DNA of 64,000 nucleotides from Sphingobacteriaceae bacterium (GTDB lineage Bacteria; Bacteroidota; Bacteroidia; UBA7662), in the NCBI GenBank assembly GCA_030682795.1, contig JAUXNJ010000040.1:62001-126000 (forward strand). The letters are read 5' to 3'. How positions within the stretch are numbered: the stretch's first letter is position 1; each line of letters opens with the position of its first letter. This document shows, piece after piece, positions 34,442-46,023 of the stretch. The notes under the pieces were generated by a model that searched no databases, was not told the DNA's origin, and worked only from the letters and a program-made list of their open reading frames with translations. A program made the position numbers and the translations under genes.

Positions 34442-35113
34442 CTAGAATTTTTTGCCTTGCGAGATGGTTTTGAACAAACCAAGGTGGAAACCTGGTCCAA
34501 AACTCGGATTCGCTTGTAAAATTGATGGCGAAACAAGCACGTTCACCTCTCCCCGAAAAGTCCATTGAGGAGCCAATTGGTACTCAAAGCCGGCACCTAA
34601 ATGGGGTGTGATGTTGAGGCCTAGGCCACGTGAATAACCCGATGCTGATTGCACAGTTTGTCCTTCATAGTTAATCCTACGTGTTCGATATCGGACCAGA
34701 CTGCCACCAGCCGCCAGTATTTGGACATTGGCAGTAAATCGCCATTTTTCACCTCCACTGCGGTAGCGAACCCCTACTGGAATCAGTAAAGCATGTGTGG
34801 TATTATTCCTGAATTCTCCAGCAATGCCATTATAATTTATTCTACTGTAGGTGGTCGCTCCTTGGCTATTAAAATAGGTCAATCCGGACTCAAGGTAGAA
34901 GGAGCGATTGAGCCGAAAGCCATAAATAAAATCGAGCTGCATATTCATTTCTCGTGGTCCTGAGTACAACACTCCATTGTATAACCGATACGAAGTAGGA
35001 GTAAATCCTTGGCGGATGCCCCAATAATTTCTGCCAAGCGTTGTTTCCATGCTTTGCGCTGAAGCGGTCATGCTGGCGGTGATGACCAAAATAAATAGGA
35101 CTAATTTCTTCAT
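34442..35113 (-). CDS. Outer-membrane beta-barrel protein (PorT-like), copy 1 of three
   Basis: 223 residues with a signal peptide ending ASAQ. Eight-plus amphipathic strands with alternating aromatic residues, for example YWGIRQGFTPTSYRLYNGVLYSG, FYLESGLTYFNSQ and GLNITPHLGAGFEYQLAPQWTF. It is a small barrel of the OmpW/PorT-like type common in Bacteroidota. Function unknown. Confidence 0.7.
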   Translation of the reverse strand: MKKLVLFILVITASMTASAQSMETTLGRNYWGIRQGFTPTSYRLYNGVLYSGPREMNMQLDFIYGFRLNRSFYLESGLTYFNSQGATTYSRINYNGIAGEFRNNTTHALLIPVGVRYRSGGEKWRFTANVQILAAGGSLVRYRTRRINYEGQTVQSASGYSRGLGLNITPHLGAGFEYQLAPQWTFRGEVNVLVSPSILQANPSFGPGFHLGLFKTISQGKKF

Positions 35114-35206
35114 CTTGCTTAGGCTTTAGGTGCTATTTGTTGAAGACGGATTGTAAGGCTTTTGGGTTGCTTTCAATGGCATTTTGCCTTATTTGTATAG
35201 GAACTG

Positions 35207-35941
35207 CTATCGCGACTTTTTGAGTTTTGAGGGAGGTAAATAGAACAGCAGTTTGGCGTAGGGTAATAAAAATAAGCTCGGCACCCCCAATACACCCAGT
35301 TGCAAGCCATATTTTTTATGGCCGTTGCTGGTGTAGCTCAGACCTGTTCCCAACCGAGGCAGGGGAGCAGCCAAAAACGTGCTACTCCTGGTTTGGAATG
35401 GCTCGCTACTTGAAAAACCCGGTTGATCAATGCTGAAAAAGGAGACATGGCCATTTTCAATGCGATGTTGTAGGAAAAAGAATTGCACACCACCTTCTGC
35501 TTCATAGCGCCACTTTTTTTGACCAAAGGTCCATTTAGCTAGGATAGGAGCAGATAGCAGCAAAACCCGCTCATCAAATCCGAAAATTTTAACCTGCTGC
35601 TCCACAGACCTTACTGTGCTTTGGCCGAACTCGCGTACGTAAAACATTTCTAGGCCCGCTTCCCAACTGAACCGCTGGTATTTTTTGCCTAAATGAAGCG
35701 CTAAGCTGGGTTTAAAAATCTGGAGATAGTCGGTAAAGGCGTATGGTGCCGGGTACATTTGCGGTTGCGTTTCTCCAAAGGGAGCCGTGCCAATGCCTAT
35801 ATATACGTAATAGGGAGATTGTTTATTGGGAAAATAAGTTGTCGAATCCTGCGCATGGCTATTAAAAAACAGGCAAGGCATGCACACGAAGCATAAAATG
35901 GCGTTGCTCCTTGGCCGCAACTGTTTTAGAATTTTTTTCAT
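35207..35941 (-). CDS. Outer-membrane beta-barrel protein, copy 2 of three
   Basis: 244 residues; the signal is in the first ~30 residues (ILCFVCMPCLFFNSHAQ). The body keeps the same layout as the adjacent proteins: a Trp/Glu-containing strand WEAGLEMFYVREFGQST and C-terminal strands ending with KLLFYLPPS. It overlaps the start of the upstream barrel gene by four bases (ATGA), so both are cotranscribed on the minus strand. Confidence 0.65.
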   Translation of the reverse strand: MKKILKQLRPRSNAILCFVCMPCLFFNSHAQDSTTYFPNKQSPYYVYIGIGTAPFGETQPQMYPAPYAFTDYLQIFKPSLALHLGKKYQRFSWEAGLEMFYVREFGQSTVRSVEQQVKIFGFDERVLLLSAPILAKWTFGQKKWRYEAEGGVQFFFLQHRIENGHVSFFSIDQPGFSSSEPFQTRSSTFLAAPLPRLGTGLSYTSNGHKKYGLQLGVLGVPSLFLLPYAKLLFYLPPSKLKKSR

Positions 35942-36591
35942 AAACGATAACCTATGTTGGTTTCAAAGGCATACACCATACGGGGTACGCTACCAGGAAA
36001 TATGAGTACGCCCGATTTTACTCCCAACACCATTTGCCTGGGTAATTGGTAGTACAGTCCTATTCCAGCCCTGCTGATGTAATCGATGCCCACAAAATGT
36101 TGCTGCTCACTGGCGAGCAGACTGCTTGGTCCTTGATTGGGAGGGGAATAAAAGTCATGACGAAAACTGCTAGCAACAAGTATGTTAAAGCCTGCCTCGG
36201 CTTCAATGCGGAGGTTTCGAAAGGGAAGTCCTATTTTGGCAAGCAGTGGAATCATGTACAACTGTGCTTGTATCTGCATTGGCAGTTCTGGTTCACTACC
36301 GTCATTGAGTTTAATTCGGCCTAAACCCTGACCCTCAAGCTGCATATAAGTTAGACCAGTTTCCCACCCTGTGAATTTGGTGCTGCGCCCATAACTTACA
36401 CCCATTTGGTAACTGGCATTGAGCGGCCAATAACTATTGATATTGCTTGCTCTCCCGTTCGATGACCAAGCAGCGTTATCAACCAATTTGCTGGCATGCA
36501 AACCTACCCTGCTTTCTGACAAGCTTGGTGGCTGTGCCCAGCCCACAGGCACGAACCACAATAGCAGCCAACTGGTTATGATTATTTTCAT
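35938..36591 (-). CDS. Outer-membrane beta-barrel protein, copy 3 of three
   Basis: 217 residues from ATG 36591 (MKIIITSWLLLWFVPVGWAQ signal); a longer frame to 36618 adds nine residues that break the signal. It carries the strand WETGLTYMQLEGQGLG, matching WEAGLEMFYV and LESGLTYF in the neighbours, and ends YAFETNIGYRL with a C-terminal aromatic strand. It overlaps the middle copy by four bases. The three genes look like tandem diverged duplicates. Confidence 0.65.
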   Translation of the reverse strand: MKIIITSWLLLWFVPVGWAQPPSLSESRVGLHASKLVDNAAWSSNGRASNINSYWPLNASYQMGVSYGRSTKFTGWETGLTYMQLEGQGLGRIKLNDGSEPELPMQIQAQLYMIPLLAKIGLPFRNLRIEAEAGFNILVASSFRHDFYSPPNQGPSSLLASEQQHFVGIDYISRAGIGLYYQLPRQMVLGVKSGVLIFPGSVPRMVYAFETNIGYRL

Positions 36592-36760
36592 TAGAATTAA
36601 AAACACTAATCTAATCAATCATTTGAAAGCAAACAAATCGAAATGCTTGGCAATCAATGTGAGGGTAAGATGGATAAGAATAGGGGGGAGTATTGCGACT
36701 ACATTAATTTTCAGTTGGTTAGTTGGTAGGGTCATAAATTTTTATCAATTTTAAAAGCGA

Positions 36761-37690
36761 ATGCCTTTTATGAAGAACAGACTTGGTTTGGTTGTAAGCA
36801 TGCTCGTTGTGGTGGCCTTGTTGGGGTGTCGCAAAACCACCCAGGTGGTGGTGCCCGACAATGTAGCGCCTTGGTACGATGGCATTCCTACGGTTTTGAT
36901 AGAGAATTACGTCAATCGCCTATTCATCGACTTACAAGGCCGCGAGCCCATTGATTCGGAGATGGTGATTCATGTGGATTTTCTGCGCAGCAACAAACTC
37001 AGTTTGAGCAGTCGTGCTGCGCTCATTGAGCAACTGCAGTTCGATACCATTCCTGCCGCCGGTGATTCATCATACCAAAGCATTTACTTTAAGCGCTTAT
37101 ATGAGCAAATGAAGGTGCGGCTCATAGAGGGCGCCAGTGATGCTTATTTGCAAGGCGAGATGGGTGTAATTCGTTTCAATGCCATCTTAGATTCACTCAA
37201 CGGCGATACGACTGGCTATAACAGAAATATGGCTGAAATTGCAAAATTTCAGCGGGTGCTCGACAGCCAATGGCATTACCGGGCGGGTACTTATAACCTC
37301 GACAGCATGTGCGCTTATTTGGTGAATAATCCAGTCTACGATTTCATCAACATGAACTCCTTCAACTTTATCAATGCCACTTTTGATAATTTGTACTTCC
37401 GTTTTCCTACCCAAAGTGAATTTGAACGAGCTTATAGAATGGTGGATGCTGAAGTGCCAGCCAGTTTATTTGGACGCAGCGGCACCAACAAATCTGATTA
37501 CATCAACATCATTGTATCACAAAATGAGTTTTGGCAGGGGCTGATTATTTGGGCCTACAAAACGCTGCTGGCGCGAGATCCGAACACTACCGAGTTGTAT
37601 TTGGCCATGCAAGAGCTCAAAAGCACGGGCGATTTTCACAGCATCCAACGAAAAATTTTAATGACCGATGAATATGCCAACTTCCGTTAA
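36761..37690 (+). CDS. Lipoprotein with DUF1549/DUF4214-like features
   Basis: 309 residues; ATG 36761, or 36770 (MKNRLGL). Lipobox VALLGC. Early segment IENYVNRLFIDLQGREPIDSEMVIH resembles the NRLFxDLxGRxPTPxE motif of DUF1549-type secreted proteins, and the end AYKTLLARDPNTTELYLAMQELK...ILMTDEYANF resembles DUF4214 repeats (LYxxLLGRxPDxxGLxYWxxxL...SxEYxxx). It is the first gene of a six-gene plus-strand cluster and overlaps the next lipoprotein gene by 23 bases. Function unknown. Confidence 0.7.
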   Translation: MPFMKNRLGLVVSMLVVVALLGCRKTTQVVVPDNVAPWYDGIPTVLIENYVNRLFIDLQGREPIDSEMVIHVDFLRSNKLSLSSRAALIEQLQFDTIPAAGDSSYQSIYFKRLYEQMKVRLIEGASDAYLQGEMGVIRFNAILDSLNGDTTGYNRNMAEIAKFQRVLDSQWHYRAGTYNLDSMCAYLVNNPVYDFINMNSFNFINATFDNLYFRFPTQSEFERAYRMVDAEVPASLFGRSGTNKSDYINIIVSQNEFWQGLIIWAYKTLLARDPNTTELYLAMQELKSTGDFHSIQRKILMTDEYANFR

Positions 37691-38171
37691 ACAGCTACTA
37701 GCGCCAATCTTACTGCTGCTGGTGCTGGCCACTGGCTGCCGGCGCGATGAATACCTTATTTACGAGGTAGATCCGGTGAAAGTACAAGGGGTGAACTATG
37801 GTAAAAACAAGCAAAAAACTACCGAACAGTACATTGCCATTTTGCATGCCAATTTGTTTCAGAAGGCTTTATCGGCCAACCAGCAAGTCGAAATTAGTAA
37901 TTTGATTGAGTCGATTGGCGACAAGCAAATAGGCTTTGAGATGGTGGTTAGCAACTTTATGAACCGTCCCGATGTGGTGCTACCGAGTATGCAGGAGATG
38001 CGGGGGGATGTAGATGCCTTTATTGTAAATACATACCGACGGTTTTTAATCAGACTGCCCACCGAAGCGGAAAAGGCTTGGTTTAGAAATTTTATTACGA
38101 CCAACACCTTTGTAACGCCGGAGATTGTGTATTTGAGTTTTGCTTTGTGTGATGAATACCAGTATTATTAA
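37668..38171 (+). CDS. Lipoprotein with a related C-terminal module
   Basis: 167 residues; ATG 37668 or 37674. Lipobox LVLATGC. The C terminus, VNTYRRFLIRLPTEAEKAWFRNFITTNTFVTPEIVYLSFALCDEYQYY, parallels the end of the preceding protein (Y-x-x-L/F-L-x-R-x-P, then a final DEYxxY/F), suggesting a duplicated domain. The upstream overlap of 23 bases points to translational coupling. A repeat-rich gap follows. Confidence 0.7.
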   Translation: MNMPTSVKQLLAPILLLLVLATGCRRDEYLIYEVDPVKVQGVNYGKNKQKTTEQYIAILHANLFQKALSANQQVEISNLIESIGDKQIGFEMVVSNFMNRPDVVLPSMQEMRGDVDAFIVNTYRRFLIRLPTEAEKAWFRNFITTNTFVTPEIVYLSFALCDEYQYY

Positions 38172-38297
38172 AAACACGGAGGACACGGAGAGCACGGAGA
38201 TTTATGATTTTAGATTTCAGATTTGGATTTATGATTTGATTTTGAATGCTTTGAACATGCTCAACACTCCGCGACTTCAATGTTTGATCCGTTATCT
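38172..38297. repeat. Inverted copy of the 38.3-kb repeat plus AT-rich GATTT repeats
   Basis: Directly after the lipoprotein stop, AAAACACGGAGGACACGGAG (38171-38190) is the reverse complement of the tandem unit core that starts 108 bases further. It is followed by a degenerate run of (A/G)GATTT, ATGATTTT and AGATTTCAGATTT elements (38200-38245). Both kinds of element resemble common intergenic repeats of Bacteroidota genomes. Nothing codes here. Confidence 0.6.
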
Positions 38298-38494
38298 CAC
38301 TCCGTGTCCACCGTGACCTCAGTGTTTTGACTAGTAACCACTCCGTGTCCACCGTGACCTCAGTGTTTTGCCCTAATAACCACTCCGTGTCCTCCGTGAC
38401 CTCAGTGTTTTACCCTAATAACCACTCCGTGTCCTCCGTGACCTCAGTGTTTTGCCCAGTAACCACTCCGTGTCCTCCGTGACCTCAGTGTTTT
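38298..38494 (+). repeat. Five tandem 31-bp units, period 41-42 bp, directly before the DUF1501 gene
   Basis: Units start at 38298, 38339, 38381, 38423 and 38464; each begins CACTCCGTGTCC(A/T)CCGTGA and ends CTCAGTGTTTT. The 10-11-base linkers are also nearly alike (GACTAGTAAC, GCCCTAATAAC, ACCCTAATAAC, GCCCAGTAAC). Variation is limited to CCACC versus CCTCC and the linkers. The last unit ends 11 bases before the ATG at 38506, so any promoter or ribosome-binding signal of that gene lies within or just after the array. Each unit has CACT...AGTG ends followed by TTTT, allowing only a weak hairpin. Confidence 0.9.
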
Positions 38495-38505
38495 AAAAGA
38501 ATAAA

Positions 38506-39852
38506 ATGAAGAGACGTACATTTCTGAAAAAGCTAGGAGTTGCCACGGCAGGAGCGGTAGTAGTACCCTACATCTTGCCAAGTGGCAGGTTGTTTGCTGC
38601 AACGGGCATGCAATTGGCACAGCACGTGGTATATGTGATGTTTGCAGGAGGTGTGCGACAGCAGGAGTCAGTCTTGCAACGCTATCTGAGTGATTCGCAG
38701 CAATTCCCTGTAGCGGGTAATATCATGCTCAACATGCTCAATGGCGCCCAACCTATTACCAAGCGGGTATACGGCACCGATCCAGTGGGTGAACCTCGTG
38801 GAAGCGCACCTATCCCTGCCATCTTGCAAAATACTTTGCAGTCGCAGGGAACCCTTTTCCCCGAAATGCGCACCACCACGGCTGGGCATTTTTCGGGACT
38901 GAATACCTTGTTGACTGGCAACACTGGGGTTACCCAAGGCCTGCGCCAGAAGCCGGTGTTTCCTACCATTTTTGAATACCTGCGTCGCCATCTGAACACC
39001 CCTGCTAGCAAGGTTTGGTTTATTGGCAACCGCATTGGCAACAGCATTCCGCTATTGAATCACAGTGAACACCCGAACTATGGGATGCAATACGGAGCCA
39101 ACTTTTTGGCGCCCAACGTTACTTTTTCGCAAGCCGGCTACACGCATCTGAGCAACGCTAAAATTTACCATCCCGAAGAGGAGCTGGCGCCGATGTTACA
39201 GATGAAGTATTTCCTCAATAACACCTACAACAGTAACGGCGGCATCGCCTTGCCAGAAATTGGCAATACGGAAGAGGAAAAACTGGCCATCCGCGAGTTT
39301 ATACGGCAGATGTATCAGAAACAGCTGTTAGGACAAGTGAGCATGCCGCCAGTGGCCGATAATGGCGATTTGCGTAACGTAGGTTATGCTTGCGAGGTAA
39401 TGAAGACTTTCAAACCAGCGCTCACCGTTGTAAATATGGATGCCGTTGATGGCTGTCACAGTAATTTTACGGGTTATTTGCGGGCGCTGCACCGGGCCGA
39501 CCATGCGGTGGGTTATTTGTGGAATTACATTCAAACGCAAATTCCTGAAATGGCAGGCAATACCATCCTCATGGTGTCGCCAGAGCACGGCCGCAACCTG
39601 AATCCAAATCCTATTCAGGATGAAAACGACTGGTATGCCTATGACCATAGCGATCAAAACTCTTTGCGCACCTTCAGCTTGATGGCTGGACCTAATGTGC
39701 CCAGCAATTTGAGTGTGGGCACGCCTACCAATCCAGTGGGGTTGGCCATGGACCATGTGCTCACCATTGCCGAGATTTTGGGCTGCAAAAACGAAGTGGC
39801 TTCCAGTGGCTTGTTGGCGGGCGGGGTACAATCTTTATTTGACAGGATATGA
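38506..39852 (+). CDS. Tat-exported DUF1501 protein
   Basis: 448 residues. The twin-arginine signal MKRRTFLKKLGVATAGAVVV marks folded export. The body fits DUF1501: GGVRQQESVLQRY, GHFSGLNTLLTGN, VDGCHSNFTGYLRALHRADHAVGYLWNYIQ and ILMVSPEHGRNLNPNP, which recalls the alkaline-phosphatase/sulfatase-like fold of the family with conserved H-x-x-N and Asp/His. No enzyme activity is established for DUF1501. In Planctomycetes such genes accompany DUF1549/DUF1553 and cytochrome genes; here the same company is found. The stop overlaps the next start (ATGA at 39849). Confidence 0.85.
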   Translation: MKRRTFLKKLGVATAGAVVVPYILPSGRLFAATGMQLAQHVVYVMFAGGVRQQESVLQRYLSDSQQFPVAGNIMLNMLNGAQPITKRVYGTDPVGEPRGSAPIPAILQNTLQSQGTLFPEMRTTTAGHFSGLNTLLTGNTGVTQGLRQKPVFPTIFEYLRRHLNTPASKVWFIGNRIGNSIPLLNHSEHPNYGMQYGANFLAPNVTFSQAGYTHLSNAKIYHPEEELAPMLQMKYFLNNTYNSNGGIALPEIGNTEEEKLAIREFIRQMYQKQLLGQVSMPPVADNGDLRNVGYACEVMKTFKPALTVVNMDAVDGCHSNFTGYLRALHRADHAVGYLWNYIQTQIPEMAGNTILMVSPEHGRNLNPNPIQDENDWYAYDHSDQNSLRTFSLMAGPNVPSNLSVGTPTNPVGLAMDHVLTIAEILGCKNEVASSGLLAGGVQSLFDRI

Positions 39853-40661
39853 GGCAGTTGTTGATTTTTACGCTTTTAGGTATGTTGGCGTTGGGGGCTT
39901 GTAAAAAGAGCAATCGGCCCGACAATCCGTTTGACGACCCTAAAAACAAACCGCCTGTGAATACAGGGCCAACCGACCCCTTGAGTTTGGCGAATTTTGC
40001 AGGCTTGCATCGGCAAATTTTTAAGCCCACATGTTCTAATAGCGGTTGTCACGATGGCACCTTTGAGCCCGATTTCCGCACCATTGAGAGTTCTTACAAT
40101 ACCATGGTGTATCAGCCGGTAATCAAAAACAATGCTGCTGGCAGCTTTTTGTACCGGGTGCTGCCAGGCAATGCCAATGGCTCGGTACTGCATGAGCGTG
40201 TGGTGGTAGATATTGACGGCATTTCGGGCATCATGCCGCTGTTGGTTGACCCGCAAAGCGACTGGCCAGCGAAGAAAGCCGAGTACATAGCCGCCATTGT
40301 AGCTTGGATCAACGGCGGTGCGCGCGATATGTTCGGTAACCCACCGGTAAACGGCCCTGCCAATCCACGTTTACAAGGCTTGATGACTTTAGGAACAGGT
40401 TATGCTTTGAGTTTTGAACAAGGTGAAGTGTCTGAGTACGTATTGCTAACCGATAAAGTGAGCAGGAAAGTTATTCGTAGACCGATTCAGCCACTGTCAC
40501 AGCCAGTGCAAGGGAGCAATGTATTCGACGAGCCCAGCAGCTTCACACATTTTTTAAGTTCAGAAGGTTTGCAGGCAGGGAAATACCAGCTGGTAGTGCC
40601 TGGTAGGGAAGCACCAGTTTTTGAAAGTTTACAGGATGAATTGTGTATTGAAGTGCGTTAG
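39849..40661 (+). CDS. Lipoprotein with CX4CH cytochrome-like motif
   Basis: 270 residues. Lipobox MLALGAC. Motif FKPTCSNSGCHDGTFEPD has C-x4-C-H rather than CxxCH, a pattern seen in many Bacteroidota and planctomycete cytochrome-like lipoproteins where a c-type heme is assumed but not always present. The later GSFLYRVLPGNANGSVLHERV and GGARDMFGNP are typical of this group. Could carry a heme and pass electrons outside the cytoplasm. Overlaps the DUF1501 gene by four bases. Confidence 0.8.
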   Translation: MRQLLIFTLLGMLALGACKKSNRPDNPFDDPKNKPPVNTGPTDPLSLANFAGLHRQIFKPTCSNSGCHDGTFEPDFRTIESSYNTMVYQPVIKNNAAGSFLYRVLPGNANGSVLHERVVVDIDGISGIMPLLVDPQSDWPAKKAEYIAAIVAWINGGARDMFGNPPVNGPANPRLQGLMTLGTGYALSFEQGEVSEYVLLTDKVSRKVIRRPIQPLSQPVQGSNVFDEPSSFTHFLSSEGLQAGKYQLVVPGREAPVFESLQDELCIEVR

Positions 40662-41088
40662 TTTTTGGGGCTGGCTACTGCTGCTGTCAAGCTGTAAGCC
40701 TAATCCCATTGTAAAACTCGATGAAGCCCCGCTGATTCGTATTGAATCGGTTACACCAACGACCATTAGAGAATTTGCAGGACGAGTTACAGTGGTGCTT
40801 CAATACGAAGATGGCGACGGGGATATGGGTAGTGTACATCCCGACAGTTTGTTGTTGGAAGTGCAAGATGACCGTTTAACTGCTCCAGATTACTATTTTG
40901 TTCCACCTTTGAGTCCAGTGGGTAGTAATGTGCCCATCCGTGGGAAACTCAATTTTACATTAAACGGCACTTTTATATTTGGGAATGGTAGTTTTGAAGA
41001 GACTATCTACAGTATTCGGCTACGCGATCGTTCGGGTAAATGGAGTAATAAAGTTAATACTCCAGCCATCCTCATAAACAGGAATTAA
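40636..41088 (+). CDS. Small lipoprotein of the surface-protein operon
   Basis: 150 residues from ATG 40636; the frame is open from TTG 40621. Lipobox-like LLLLSSC. The mature part is beta-rich, with LQYEDGDGDMGSVHPDSLLLEV (Asp-rich, possible Ca2+ site). It overlaps the upstream gene by 26 bases and its stop shares one base with the next start (TAATG), so it is coupled to the large surface protein. Confidence 0.7.
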   Translation: MNCVLKCVSFWGWLLLLSSCKPNPIVKLDEAPLIRIESVTPTTIREFAGRVTVVLQYEDGDGDMGSVHPDSLLLEVQDDRLTAPDYYFVPPLSPVGSNVPIRGKLNFTLNGTFIFGNGSFEETIYSIRLRDRSGKWSNKVNTPAILINRN

Positions 41089-44000
41089 TGCACAGGTTAG
41101 GTTTGGTTTTGCTGTTGCTACTCACTGCACTGATGGGTGCGGCGCAGCCTACCTATGTGATGAGTAATCGCACAGTGACCGATTGTAGGGCTTTTTTTGA
41201 AGATTCAGGGGCCAATACGATAGCCGCTGGCAATTATAATAATAATGAAAATTTCACTTTCGTTATTCTCAATCCCACGGCCACGCAGATCATCATGACT
41301 TTTCAGAGCTTTTGCACCGAGCCATTTGGCGCGGGTTTTGGCGATAGGCTCCGCATTTTCGATGGCCCCGATACCAACGGGGTACTTTTGGGTAGTTTTT
41401 CAGGGCCAAATGTGGTTTTCCCGCCGCTGGTGGCTACAAGCGGGGCCATGACCATCCATTTTCAGAGCGATTTGAGTGTGACTTGTACGGGTTGGAATGC
41501 CTATTGGTACAGCATTGTGCCACCACCAATTCCCCCAAACATCAATCAAATTACCGCCAGCTGTCTCACCAATACCATCGATGTGGTACTCGACAGCAGC
41601 GTGCATTGCGATTCGGTGTACGCTTCAGCCTTTGTGCTAAGCGGAGCGCCTGCCCGTACCATAGTTGGGGCGCAGGCTTTGAACTGCGTTAATAATCGCA
41701 CCAATACCCTGCGCTTAACGGTGAATACGGCATTTTCCGACTGCGCAACTTATGGTCTTGCCTGGAATTTAAACCTGCTAGATGTCTGCGACAGCTTGTA
41801 CACCTTTTTAATCAACAGCAGTTTTGTGATTAATAACTGCCCACTTTCGGGTACTTTGACGGCCAGCGATGATTCGATTTGTATCGGCGAGTGCATATTA
41901 CTCACAGCTGCAGGGGTGGGGGGCGATTGCAATTACAATTACATTTGGAACAACGGCTTGCCGCCTACTGCCGGTCCGCACTTGGTTTGTCCTCCGCCAG
42001 GAACCACCACCTATACTGTGATAATCAATGATGGGGCGGGCAACGGACCGGATACGTTGAGCATCAACATTTTGGTGACTACACCGCCCGAGGCTGGCAA
42101 CGATACCTTGGTGTGTTTGTCGTCCGCTCCTTTTAACCTGGCAAGCCGGGCATCACCACCCGGTGGCGTGTTCTTTGGCCCCGGTATTACCGCGGCGGCG
42201 GCGGGCACCTTCAACCCAGCCCTCGCCAACCAAACCCAAGTCCGCATTTTTTACTCCGTTAACGGCTGCGCCGACTCGCTCACGATCAACATCGCCAACG
42301 TCACCGCCGGACCAACGGCAGGCAGTTGTCCAGGAGGCCCGCCCGTTCCGCTCGGCGGGGCAAGCCCGCCTGGAGGTTACTGGACTGGCCCGAATACCGA
42401 TTCCGCGGGCAACTATACGCCGCCGCCTACCCCGCGCATCGATACCGTTTTCTACCACTTTGCCGGCTGCTCCGCCCAAAAATTGGTGTACATCGATACC
42501 ATTGCGATGAACAAAATCGACACCATCTGCCAAAGTTCTCCGCCCTACCAATTGGTGTTTAGTCCGCCCGGGGGCAGCTGGACCGGCGTAGCCCTGGTAA
42601 ATCCGCTCACCGGCATCATCGACCCGCAACTCACCCTGCCCGGAAATCACCAGCTCATTTACAACCTCAATGGCTGCACCGATACACTCAACCTGCACAT
42701 CAAAGCCATTCAAGCGGGGGCCAATTTTATTACCTGTCCGCTCAACGCCCCCTTTAACTTACCTGCCGGCACGCCCGCTGGTGGCTACTGGACCGGCCCC
42801 GGCATTACCGACAGTCTGCTCGGCACCTTCAACCCCGGCGTAAATGGCACTGGCAACAGCCAAATCATGCTCGCCTACAACCTCGATGGTTGCGTAGATT
42901 CGCTGCAAATAAATTTGGTGCGTACCAATGTGCCCGCCGACACCCTGCGCCGCTGTATCACTGGCGCCGTGTGGGCGCTCAATTTTGCGAATACGGGGCG
43001 TGGACCAGCAGGAGGCACTTGGAGCGGTCCGGGCGTGAACCCAGCAGGACAAGGCAGTTTTAATCCAGCTGCAGCTGGCGTGGGCTGGCACCGACTGTAC
43101 TACACGGCCAACAACTGCACCGACAGCCTTTGGATGGAAGTGCAGCCTGTTCCGCAGCTCCAGGCCGACACCGTGGTTTGTTTGTCTACCCCAGCTTTTG
43201 CCATCCAAAGCAGTTATGCAGGCGGCCGCTGGTCTGGAACTGGCATCACCGACACCCTCCTCGGCATCTTCAATCCCGCAACGGCTGGTACAGGCAATCA
43301 CCGCATTTATCAATTTTTATTTGGCGGCTGCATCGATTCAATTTTGATCACCGTTCAGCCTATCCCCATTATTAGTTTTGGCGGTTTCGACACCAGTTAT
43401 TGCTTTGTAAATACGAATTATCCCGTACCGGTAACGCCAGCAGGGGGTACACTCACGGGCGCAGGCATAACAGGTCTCACTTTCAATCCCCGACAAGCTG
43501 GCGTTGGCACGCACTGGCTACGCTATACTGCGGGCACGGGCGACTGCGAACGCAGCGACAGCCTGCGTATTACCGTTGGCGACAGCCTCAGACTGCAGCT
43601 CTTTGCTTCGGCCGACACCCTTTGCTACGGCGACAGCGTACGCCTGCGAGCGCGACTTACAGGTGGTCGCCCAGGCGCGACGCTAAACTGGCAACCCGTT
43701 GGCAGCAGCGACACCGTACTTACACTTTTCCCTACCACGCCTACCTGGTACGTGGTTACGGCTACCGATGGCTGCTCCGACCCCATCATCGACTCCATTC
43801 GAGTGTTTGTGCACCCCGATTTTGTGTACCAGCGCACGCAAATCAACATCAATTGCTACGATAGCCTGGGCACCATGCGCATTGATTATGCGGTTGCAGC
43901 TCCTTACCAGGTGTTGTGGCTTACCAATCCGCCGGTAACCGGACCGGTGCTACAAGCCCGGCAAGGCAATTACCGCGTGCAAATTACCGATACCAGCACG

Positions 44001-44582
44001 GGTTGCGTCCGCATCGATACTGTTACCATCATTGCCCACGATCCTATATCAGCCAATTTTACCCCCAATCCCAACCGCAACAGCTGCTACGACCTTTCCG
44101 AAGCCTTTATCACCCTAATAGATTTGAGTTTGGGTGCACAATCGGGTTACTGGGATTTTGGCGACGGTACCATCGAGCCTTACATTTTTGGGCAGTACCC
44201 CAGTCACCAATACACCGATACAGGTAGGTTTGAACTTCGGCTTTATGTAGAAAATACTGCCGGTTGCAGCGATTTGGCATTCCGCAGTATTTGTGTGGTG
44301 GTTTTGCCGCGCATTTATGTGCCTACTGCCTTCACCCCAAATTTCGACCTTACCAACGACCGATTCAAAGTAGCCACGGTTGGCATTACCAGTCTTGAAA
44401 TTACTGTTTTCGATCGATGGGGCATGGAGGTATACCGCGGCTCAGGCATCGATTTTGAATGGGATGGCACCAAGAATGGGGCTGAACTTCCTCCGGGAGC
44501 TTATCCTTATGTGATTTATTACACCGATTTTACCAACCTTGGTAGGCGCATCCAAAGTGGTGTGGTGCGGCTCATCAAGTAA
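41088..44582 (+). CDS. Large surface protein: CUB, seven Cys-bearing modules, PKD and type B T9SS sorting domain
   Basis: 1164 residues. Signal peptide of ~20 residues (LGLVLLLLLTALMGAAQ). A CUB-like domain (~25-145) contains FGAGFGDRLRIFDGPDTNG and the FQSDLSVT...GWNA end. From about residue 337 to 831 come seven modules of ~65-80 residues: each has a Cys near its start, a GG(x)(W/F)xGPG turn (for example GGYWTGPG, GGTWSGPG, GGRWSGTG), a TFNP segment and a closing NGC(A/T/V)DSL Cys. A PKD repeat (YWDFGDGT) and a gliding-motility C-terminal domain (VPTAFTPNFDLTNDRFKV...YRGSGIDFEWDGTKNG) end the protein. The latter directs type IX secretion and surface attachment. Confidence 0.93.
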   Translation: MHRLGLVLLLLLTALMGAAQPTYVMSNRTVTDCRAFFEDSGANTIAAGNYNNNENFTFVILNPTATQIIMTFQSFCTEPFGAGFGDRLRIFDGPDTNGVLLGSFSGPNVVFPPLVATSGAMTIHFQSDLSVTCTGWNAYWYSIVPPPIPPNINQITASCLTNTIDVVLDSSVHCDSVYASAFVLSGAPARTIVGAQALNCVNNRTNTLRLTVNTAFSDCATYGLAWNLNLLDVCDSLYTFLINSSFVINNCPLSGTLTASDDSICIGECILLTAAGVGGDCNYNYIWNNGLPPTAGPHLVCPPPGTTTYTVIINDGAGNGPDTLSINILVTTPPEAGNDTLVCLSSAPFNLASRASPPGGVFFGPGITAAAAGTFNPALANQTQVRIFYSVNGCADSLTINIANVTAGPTAGSCPGGPPVPLGGASPPGGYWTGPNTDSAGNYTPPPTPRIDTVFYHFAGCSAQKLVYIDTIAMNKIDTICQSSPPYQLVFSPPGGSWTGVALVNPLTGIIDPQLTLPGNHQLIYNLNGCTDTLNLHIKAIQAGANFITCPLNAPFNLPAGTPAGGYWTGPGITDSLLGTFNPGVNGTGNSQIMLAYNLDGCVDSLQINLVRTNVPADTLRRCITGAVWALNFANTGRGPAGGTWSGPGVNPAGQGSFNPAAAGVGWHRLYYTANNCTDSLWMEVQPVPQLQADTVVCLSTPAFAIQSSYAGGRWSGTGITDTLLGIFNPATAGTGNHRIYQFLFGGCIDSILITVQPIPIISFGGFDTSYCFVNTNYPVPVTPAGGTLTGAGITGLTFNPRQAGVGTHWLRYTAGTGDCERSDSLRITVGDSLRLQLFASADTLCYGDSVRLRARLTGGRPGATLNWQPVGSSDTVLTLFPTTPTWYVVTATDGCSDPIIDSIRVFVHPDFVYQRTQININCYDSLGTMRIDYAVAAPYQVLWLTNPPVTGPVLQARQGNYRVQITDTSTGCVRIDTVTIIAHDPISANFTPNPNRNSCYDLSEAFITLIDLSLGAQSGYWDFGDGTIEPYIFGQYPSHQYTDTGRFELRLYVENTAGCSDLAFRSICVVVLPRIYVPTAFTPNFDLTNDRFKVATVGITSLEITVFDRWGMEVYRGSGIDFEWDGTKNGAELPPGAYPYVIYYTDFTNLGRRIQSGVVRLIK

Positions 44583-44697: not shown

Positions 44698-45285
44698 TTA
44701 GTCTCTAGCAAAAGGACTCACTACCAAATAAGTGGTTAAATCGGTGGTGCTAATGGCCTGCAGCGGGTCGTGTACCACCAAAAAGCCTTGGTAATTGCTT
44801 GTGAGATATTCAAAAGTGCGGTTTACTTCTTGTCCGCCTTTGGCTGTGATGTGCGATACGCGGTGACCGTGTCCGCCGCCATGACCGTGGTCGTGCCCGC
44901 GGCTGGTGAGGGCCAGGGTTAACACTTCGCTATTAGGTGTTTCAATGTAAGGCGTGCCGTTGGGTGTGGTTGCGGGATCTGCAGCATCATGTGCATGAAC
45001 CATGTACACCGCGCCTTCAACGGTATTGTGCAATTCAACCTGCACCAGGCACCGGTTAGCGGCAAGCTCCGTGATGATCATGGTGCCCGTCATATTCGTT
45101 GGATGATTGCCATTGTAAGCAGTGCCATCGCCCAGCTGGCCAATATTGAAGTTGTACGAATAGGTCATACTACGGCCCTCAGCTGGAGTAGGTTCAGGCG
45201 TCATGGGCTCGGTTTGACAAGCAGTAAAAGCAAAGGCGCCAGTCAAGATGAAAGCGCTTAAGGAAAGGGATTTGAGTATTTTCAT
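44698..45285 (-). CDS. Lipoprotein, paralog A, with His-rich insert
   Basis: 195 residues from ATG 45285 (MKILKSLSLSAFILTG); a longer frame upstream has no signal peptide. Lipobox AFTAC. Shares with the neighbour at 45487 the segments YMVHAHDAADPATTPNGTPY and VVHDPLQAISTTDLTTYLVV. The overall outline (xxHxHDxxD near the middle, VVHDP near the end) is faintly like Cu/Zn superoxide dismutase or CHRD folds, a speculation only. Paralog A alone has the insert GHDHGHGGGHGHR, likely to bind metal. It lies downstream of the neighbour on the minus strand but has its own region behind a terminator. Confidence 0.78.
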   Translation of the reverse strand: MKILKSLSLSAFILTGAFAFTACQTEPMTPEPTPAEGRSMTYSYNFNIGQLGDGTAYNGNHPTNMTGTMIITELAANRCLVQVELHNTVEGAVYMVHAHDAADPATTPNGTPYIETPNSEVLTLALTSRGHDHGHGGGHGHRVSHITAKGGQEVNRTFEYLTSNYQGFLVVHDPLQAISTTDLTTYLVVSPFARD

Positions 45286-45400
45286 TTTGTGTGTTTTTGG
45301 TTTGTTGAAGAGATATACGGCGGCTGTGAGAGGTTGGATTGGGTAGGAAGAAAAAAAGATTGAAGCTTGTAAATGCCTCACCGCAGGCTGCTGTGGTCTC

Positions 45401-45436
45401 AAAAAAAATCCCGATTGCCTTAATGACAATCGGGAT
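45401..45436 (-). terminator. Intrinsic terminator of the second paralogous lipoprotein gene
   Basis: On the minus strand a perfect 10-bp stem ATCCCGATTG / CAATCGGGAT with a 9-base loop is followed by eight T. It closes the transcript of 45487-46023, so paralog A is a separate unit. Confidence 0.88.
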
Positions 45437-45486: not shown

Positions 45487-46023
45487 TTAGTTGCGGGCAA
45501 ACACGCCAACCACCAAATAAGTAGTGAGGTCGGTAGTGCTGATGGCCTGCATTGGATCATGCACCACAAAAAACGCATTGTAGCTGTTCACAATGTTGTC
45601 GAACGAGCGGTTGGCTTCTTGCATGCCCATTACACTGCTGCCAGTAGCGTTGAGCGCAAGCGTCAACACATTGGTGTTTGGCGTTTCGTTGTAAGGCGTG
45701 CCATTTGGCGTAGTCGCTGGATCTGCGGCGTCGTGGGCATGTACCATGTAGGTTTGACCGGCTACCGCGTTGTTCAAGGTTACATCGATTCGCGATTTGT
45801 TGGCGTCGATCTCTGTTACCTTCAAAGTGGCGGTGAGGGTGCTGGGGTGCATACCGTCATAGGCAGTGCCCGCGCCAACCTGGCCCGTGTTGAAGGCGTA
45901 AGTGAAAGTCGCCGTGCGTGGCTCCGGGGTTGGCTCCGGCATTGCTTCCTTTTTGCAAGAGCTGAAAGACATGGCACCAGCGATGAGCAGTGCAGAGATC
46001 GAAAGGATTTTGAAATTTTTCAT
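45487..46023 (-). CDS. Lipoprotein, paralog B, without His-rich insert
   Basis: 178 residues. Lipobox SFSSC after MKNFKILSISALLIAG. Same modules as paralog A: Tyr-Ala-Phe-rich start (YAFNTGQVGAGTAYDGMHPS), HAHDAADPATTPNGTPYNETPN and VVHDPMQAISTTDLTTYLVV, but in place of the His-rich stretch it has ATGSSVMGM. The pair arose by duplication. The AAACCCTG...CAGGGTTT hairpin at 45447-45477 lies just past its stop. Confidence 0.78.
   Translation of the reverse strand: MKNFKILSISALLIAGAMSFSSCKKEAMPEPTPEPRTATFTYAFNTGQVGAGTAYDGMHPSTLTATLKVTEIDANKSRIDVTLNNAVAGQTYMVHAHDAADPATTPNGTPYNETPNTNVLTLALNATGSSVMGMQEANRSFDNIVNSYNAFFVVHDPMQAISTTDLTTYLVVGVFARN

Follow-up and report, generated by a model that had tools for sequence, protein, structure and literature searches.

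The window, as we call the whole 64,000-nucleotide stretch of Sphingobacteriaceae DNA analysed here, holds six consecutive same-strand genes for predicted envelope proteins. These genes raise two questions: do they belong together, and what might they do? The initial annotation had treated them as one unit resembling the DUF1501 and cytochrome gene sets of Planctomycetes.

Layout of the operon

The six open reading frames, named A to F, occupy positions 36761–44582 on the + strand, as first described. Their coordinates confirmed the reported overlaps of 23 bases (A/B), 4 bases (C/D), 26 bases (D/E, using the ATG of E) and 1 base (E/F). The described make-up of the components was also recovered: lipoboxes in A, B, D and E, a Tat signal in C, a CX4CH motif in D, and CUB, PKD and CHU_C domains in F. 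Opposite-strand genes bound the operon on both sides, at 36618 and 44698, which makes 36761–44582 a natural transcription unit. Scanning the operon for promoters and terminators gave promoter-like sites at a level not above chance.

Divergent from A on the − strand, three consecutive ORFs (34442–36618) resemble outer-membrane beta-barrel proteins and had no NCBIfam match over cut-off. On the other side, also on the − strand, two tandem paralogous lipoproteins (44698–45429 and 45487–46023) have the motif HAHDAADPATTPNGTPY in common; they gave no NCBIfam match either.

The only gap of the operon separates B from C. It is 334 bp long and contains 4.7 copies of a 42-bp tandem repeat (38298–38494, + strand), whereas in other loci B and C lie close together (median gap 13.5 bp). 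The repeat, a local insert that lies outside the conserved unit, is missing from this gap in a sister operon, L035, whose C is 98% identical. As the repeat belongs to a local family with 25 matches in the window's genome and is not conserved, we rejected the gap as a regulatory element. Related repeats occupy the B–C gap of locus L031, not that of L035.

Conservation, spread and two operon types

A survey of Bacteroidota for the same gene order had been proposed, with scattered genes as the outcome that would speak against a single set. Instead, the order was kept in about 90 loci, that is, in every testable one. Counting loci where both genes are covered, same-strand adjacency was found in 86/86 loci for A–B, 87/87 for B–C, 86/86 for C–D, 83/83 for D–E and 54/54 for E–F (90 loci; 45 loci were extracted from genome contigs). 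Because some of these loci represent one genome twice, the counts are not independent, and the distribution across families is the more reliable guide. Relatives of C were detected in 40 of 100 relatives' genomes (E 1e-3) and in 77 of 295 genomes of the class (E 1e-30), about a quarter, from 29 families. In a phylum-wide sample C occurred in 2 of 392 genomes (E 1e-40), indicating that the operon is a patchy, class-level trait. Protein lengths are nearly constant across loci; F, for instance, measures 1151–1194 aa in 25 complete copies. The six genes could in principle be unrelated neighbours, and their differing predicted folds, with nothing beyond these, would fit. We rejected this reading, which has next to no chance of being right, because it is contradicted by adjacency conserved in every testable locus and by a C that occurs across 29 families.

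A tree of C splits into two clades at a single 100/100 branch. In type 1, F directly follows E (45/45 scored loci); in type 2, ABCDE occurs without F (9/9 loci), and C is ∼40–45% identical to that of type 1. Since the type-2 clade lacks F, F falls outside the core. Thus, the neighbours belong together and A–F are one conserved unit in type-1 loci, the core of the operon is the five genes ABCDE, and F is a type-1 addition. The six-gene unit originally described holds as the ABCDE set, joined by F in type 1, and fails in counting the type IX secretion system (T9SS) protein F as core. Loci L123–L131 are type-2 operons with ABCDE only; in L124–L126 two F-like proteins lie upstream and are divergently transcribed.

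Genomes usually carry one or two copies of the operon. Two copies were found in 20 genomes (one split gene was left out of the count), and one copy of each type in G021, G029, G061, G068 and G076. Both types have the same ABCDE and reside together in some genomes, so the unit seems to have been duplicated as a set. Flanking genes differ by lineage and none recurs in general (61 loci), which marks the unit as discrete; constant extra partner genes were therefore rejected. PorG–UppS and a gene for 681 aa recur beside the operon in one lineage only.

In a sister genus of the same family (g2; G003, G006, G008, G010 and G012–G016), genomes of 1.2–1.9 Mb are without the operon, and most of these small genomes still keep SprA. 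As SprA is near-universal (92 of 100 relatives), its co-occurrence with the operon was uninformative on a dependence on T9SS. One locus, L034, comes from a record titled Sphingomonadales. Its C, 78% identical to that of the window, falls among Bacteroidota sequences in the tree, and the taxon in the title is probably wrong.

A and B resemble linker-type proteins

A (36761–37690, + strand, 309 aa) is predicted from its ORF, orthologue profiles and a structural model to be an all-helical lipoprotein; a second ATG lies at 36770, and the gene may start there. B (37668–38171, + strand, 167 aa) is a smaller predicted lipoprotein related to A. The window's own A and B matched no Pfam or NCBIfam family over cut-off, and their relations emerged only with orthologues and profiles: DUF4214 was matched in 18 of 25 A orthologues (best 3.1e-7) and 21 of 30 B orthologues (best 8.6e-6), and PBS_linker_poly in 9 of 25 A orthologues. 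The A profile also matched solved PBS-linker chains in the PDB (E 1.6e-8), and a profile search of solved structures with B gave nothing useful. The two proteins are related to each other (hhalign probability 94.3, E 9.9e-8, partly owing to their common lipoprotein signal region), and their profiles cross-match each other's proteins. The model of A has a pLDDT of 90.5 and is nearly all helix. As Foldseek returned no significant match for it, its kinship with phycobilisome linkers rests on sequence profiles. By these profiles A and B are DUF4214/phycobilisome-linker-like.

The initial annotation had called A and B DUF1549/DUF4214-like and had named the lack of any such profile relation as evidence against its reading. 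The DUF4214 half stood. Kinship of A with DUF1549/DUF1553 is only suggestive, with weak PSD1/PSCyt2 (DUF1553/DUF1549) matches in 4 of 25 A orthologues (best E 0.003–0.012). Comparing A and B with PSCyt2/PSD1 proteins by hhalign gave E 0.013–0.031 over short stretches, which is not significant, and we set a direct relation aside as weak.

C is a DUF1501-like protein with a predicted alkaline phosphatase fold

C (38506–39852, + strand, 448 aa) has a Tat signal (TIGR01409, above cut-off). The Pfam model for DUF1501 (PF07394) did not match the window's C at E 1, nor at E 10 within its own genome, and matched none of 30 C orthologues at E 0.1. Profile comparison, however, aligned C with DUF1501 proteins linked to DUF1800 over 324 columns (hhalign probability 94.6, E 6.6e-8). 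This is the group with which C aligns best; for the PSCyt-linked group the probability was 43%, over the C-terminal part. A joint alignment of C and DUF1501 proteins revealed five common motifs: GGx4(D/E), a His before a TG-type motif, xDxxH, E-x-GR and DH. The first of these follows strand 1 and has Asn instead in the DUF1800-linked group. By profile relation and shared motifs we thus assign C to the DUF1501 superfamily, outside the Pfam model. The DUF1501-like character first ascribed to it is upheld, although that model gives no match.

The AlphaFold model of C (pLDDT 82.6) predicts an alkaline-phosphatase-superfamily fold. The best Foldseek matches were sulfatases (probability 1.00), and realignment to PafA gave Z 25.9 with an rmsd of 3.6 over 292 residues. 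A profile search of solved structures with C gave nothing useful. The conserved centre comprises carboxylate 54, His128, D315/H318, E360 and D380/H381, and the putative metal residues are invariant. His128 (38887–38889, + strand) lies nine residues before the TG motif; every C in the alignment has this His, as do the 19 canonical DUF1501 sequences aligned with them. Sulfatases and ENPPs have TG-anchored nucleophile motifs, C/S-x-P-S-R...TG and T-F-P-N-H...TG, respectively, and it is by alignment to these that the His128 column would correspond to the nucleophile column of sulfatases and phosphodiesterases. At this column no Ser, Thr or Cys nucleophile is recognisable in C. When C was compared by profile with Bacteroidota phosphodiesterases, the alignment was confined to the C-terminal half, with its metal motifs, and did not reach the putative nucleophile column. 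By motif alignment, Glu54 and Glu360 appear to occupy positions that are Asp in other members of the superfamily.

Could C then work as a conventional phosphatase or sulfatase, scavenging nutrients or degrading glycans, with the other proteins aiding substrate binding? The fold, with its match to PafA and many sulfatases, and weak Sulfatase/Phosphodiest matches in a few orthologues are what such an enzyme would show. We nevertheless consider it improbable, given an invariant His in what would be the nucleophile column and no recurring flanking gene set of the polysaccharide-utilisation type among the 61 loci.

D and E and the orientation of the lipoproteins

D (39849–40661, + strand, 270 aa) and E (40636–41088, + strand) matched no Pfam or NCBIfam family over cut-off in the window. 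Among 30 D orthologues, C62, C67 and H68 (the CX4CH motif, 40032–40052, + strand), M129-P130 and W153-I154-x2-G157-A158 are invariant; Met129 (40233–40235, + strand) is the candidate axial ligand. The profile of D aligned with the PSCyt1-like region of DUF1501-neighbour proteins (hhalign probability 94.5, E 7.7e-8) and matched proteins encoded beside canonical DUF1501 (E 4e-6 to 4e-4). Pfam PSCyt1 matched none of the 30 orthologues at E 0.1, and the motif is CX4CH in all 30, not the CXXCH of PSCyt1. By its profile relations D is a PSCyt1-like, putatively monoheme c-type lipoprotein, in keeping with the cytochrome-like character and planctomycete parallel first proposed for it. D has ∼315 aa in most orthologues, and the full C-terminal domain is missing in the window's clade. 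In the window's family (the window, L033 and L062) D ranges over ∼180–290 aa, its C-terminal domain lost or replaced.

E is a short Asp-rich lipoprotein that probably starts at ATG 40636 (a TTG at 40621 is the alternative). Pfam and NCBIfam yielded no family for it, and a profile search of solved structures gave nothing useful.

The lipobox is present in 24/25 A, 27/30 B, 28/30 D and 29/29 E orthologues. A rule exists for the surface export signal (LES) of Bacteroidota lipoproteins (PMC5080379). With LES taken as an export signal at +2 to +6, LES-like tails were found in 2/25 A, 3/30 B, 7/30 D and 8/29 E orthologues, by a rule that is uncalibrated for this clade. The initial annotation had raised the idea of a surface complex that might bind or modify an extracellular polymer. 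Since most orthologues lack an LES-like tail, the four lipoproteins are more likely to be turned towards the periplasm, F being the member outside.

The Tat route suits the export of proteins whose cofactor is loaded in the cytoplasm. The Tat export of C, along with the invariant CX4CH and Met of D, would fit a cell-surface electron-transfer device in which D exchanges electrons with extracellular acceptors and C is a metal cofactor protein. We regard this as very unlikely: each operon has a single heme motif, no cytochrome or porin partner recurs in the flanks (61 loci), and Pfam and NCBIfam found no oxidoreductase domain in any member.

F and type IX secretion

F (41088–44582, + strand, 1164 aa) adjoins E in type-1 operons only. 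It has a CUB domain (41232–41504, + strand; Pfam 2.9e-8), about seven Ig-like GG-x-W-x-G repeats (42075–43667, + strand), a PKD domain and a type-B sorting domain (CTD; 44319–44534, + strand). The latter matched TIGR04131/CHU_C with 49.9 bits against a cut-off of 35 and 57.2 against 27, by which F is identified as a type-B T9SS substrate. In five loci a PorP/SprF-family gene directly follows F; one representative matched TIGR03519 at 2.3e-54. In the window's genome the two PorP/SprF genes lie away from the operon. PorP-like proteins keep type-B CTD proteins attached to the cell surface, as PorE–PorP does with PG1035 (PMC9143113).

With this precedent, A–E might be a non-enzymatic apparatus that anchors or matures surface proteins, with A and B as scaffolds, C as a dead enzyme and F as an adhesin held as PG1035 is. 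The linker-type sequence of A and B, a C without a recognisable nucleophile, the constant adjacency of F to E and the PorP gene after F in five loci all point this way. Type-2 operons, on the other hand, retain all of A–E without an adjacent F, and the putative metal residues and heme motif are invariant, which would be needless in a dead scaffold. We see this explanation as possible, if rather unlikely.

A possible role for the operon

We tentatively favour a reading of A–E as an outer-membrane DUF1501-type module, probably metal- or redox-dependent, that serves a surface polymer or F. In this picture the four lipoproteins would be attached to the outer membrane, probably on its periplasmic side, and would keep C in a complex, with A and B as helical DUF4214-type scaffolds, D as a monoheme c-type protein once loaded with heme, and E as a small acidic protein. 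C, a Tat-exported protein of alkaline phosphatase fold with an altered metal site, would perform a metal- or redox-dependent step on the polymer or on F. In type 1, the product or client might be displayed by F, envisaged as a T9SS-secreted rod of 1,160 residues that PorP/SprF-type barrels could hold at the surface.

This reading builds on the gene order in every testable locus, the 29 families and the same ABCDE in both types, and on the fold and DUF1501 kinship of C, the kinships of D with PSCyt1 and of A and B with linkers, and the type-B CTD of F with its PorP/SprF neighbours. Given the conserved centre of C and its heme partner, a modification that depends on metal or redox chemistry is a better fit than hydrolysis of the usual phosphatase or sulfatase kind. 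We counted against it that the Pfam DUF1501 and PSCyt1 models match neither C nor D, that the putative heme motif of D departs from CXXCH, that the nucleophile column comes from motif alignment while the phosphodiesterase profile covers only the C-terminal half of C, and that type 2 has no adjacent F. It is conceivable, and on balance unlikely, that the operon encodes an envelope machine in which the phosphatase-fold C has turned into a redox or metal-transfer enzyme, with His in the putative nucleophile position and the CX4CH heme lipoprotein as its partner, coupled in one clade to a T9SS-displayed surface protein. If this were true, the operon would offer a simple, genetically separable model for DUF1501/PSCyt modules.

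Comparison with known systems

Our search found no published description of the operon; subscription journals and preprints were mostly outside that search. Alkaline phosphatase superfamily enzymes (PafA, sulfatases, ENPPs) share the predicted fold of C, with Z 25.9 to PafA, and C would differ from them in its His at the putative nucleophile column and its Glu54 and Glu360 in place of Asp. PorP/SprF systems (SprB–SprF, PG1035–PorP–PorE) resemble type 1 in the type-B CTD of F and the PorP/SprF gene after F in five loci, whereas the window's genome has its PorP/SprF genes away from the operon. DUF1501–DUF1800 pairs have been linked to bacterial chitin synthase genes (PMC5122149). C aligns best with the DUF1501 group of these pairs, and a weak alignment links the C-terminal part of A to the neighbouring DUF1800-type proteins (E 4e-4, probability 35); the operon described here, however, has neither DUF1800 nor chitin synthase and adds D, E and F.

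Planctomycetes and Verrucomicrobia have many DUF1501-centred gene sets, and the function of these PSCyt/DUF1501 modules is described as unknown (PMC5615132); in Rhodopirellula baltica the PSD1 and PSCyt2 domains each occur 41 times (PMC2754498). Similar modules of PSCyt1–PSCyt2(DUF1549)–PSD1(DUF1553) with DUF1501 were found in Bacteroidota (L107–L116). Some Bacteroidota carry several copies of canonical DUF1501 modules with PSCyt1-like neighbours; genome G155 has 10 DUF1501 matches. The likeness to the ABCDE operon lies in a DUF1501-fold Tat protein, a PSCyt1-like heme domain and helical partner domains, and the profile relations of C with DUF1501 and of D with PSCyt1 bear out the planctomycete parallel drawn at the outset. 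In those modules the heme and helical domains are fused and the motif is CXXCH; in ABCDE they are separate small lipoproteins, D has CX4CH, C lies outside Pfam DUF1501, and E and, in type 1, the T9SS protein F are added.

Taken together, the combination of DUF1501, a heme domain and helical partners is of a known kind, and this operon is a previously undescribed relative and, as far as the literature searched shows, the first such module to be connected with type IX secretion. Because parts that are fused elsewhere are here separate genes in one discrete unit, the role of each part is directly testable.
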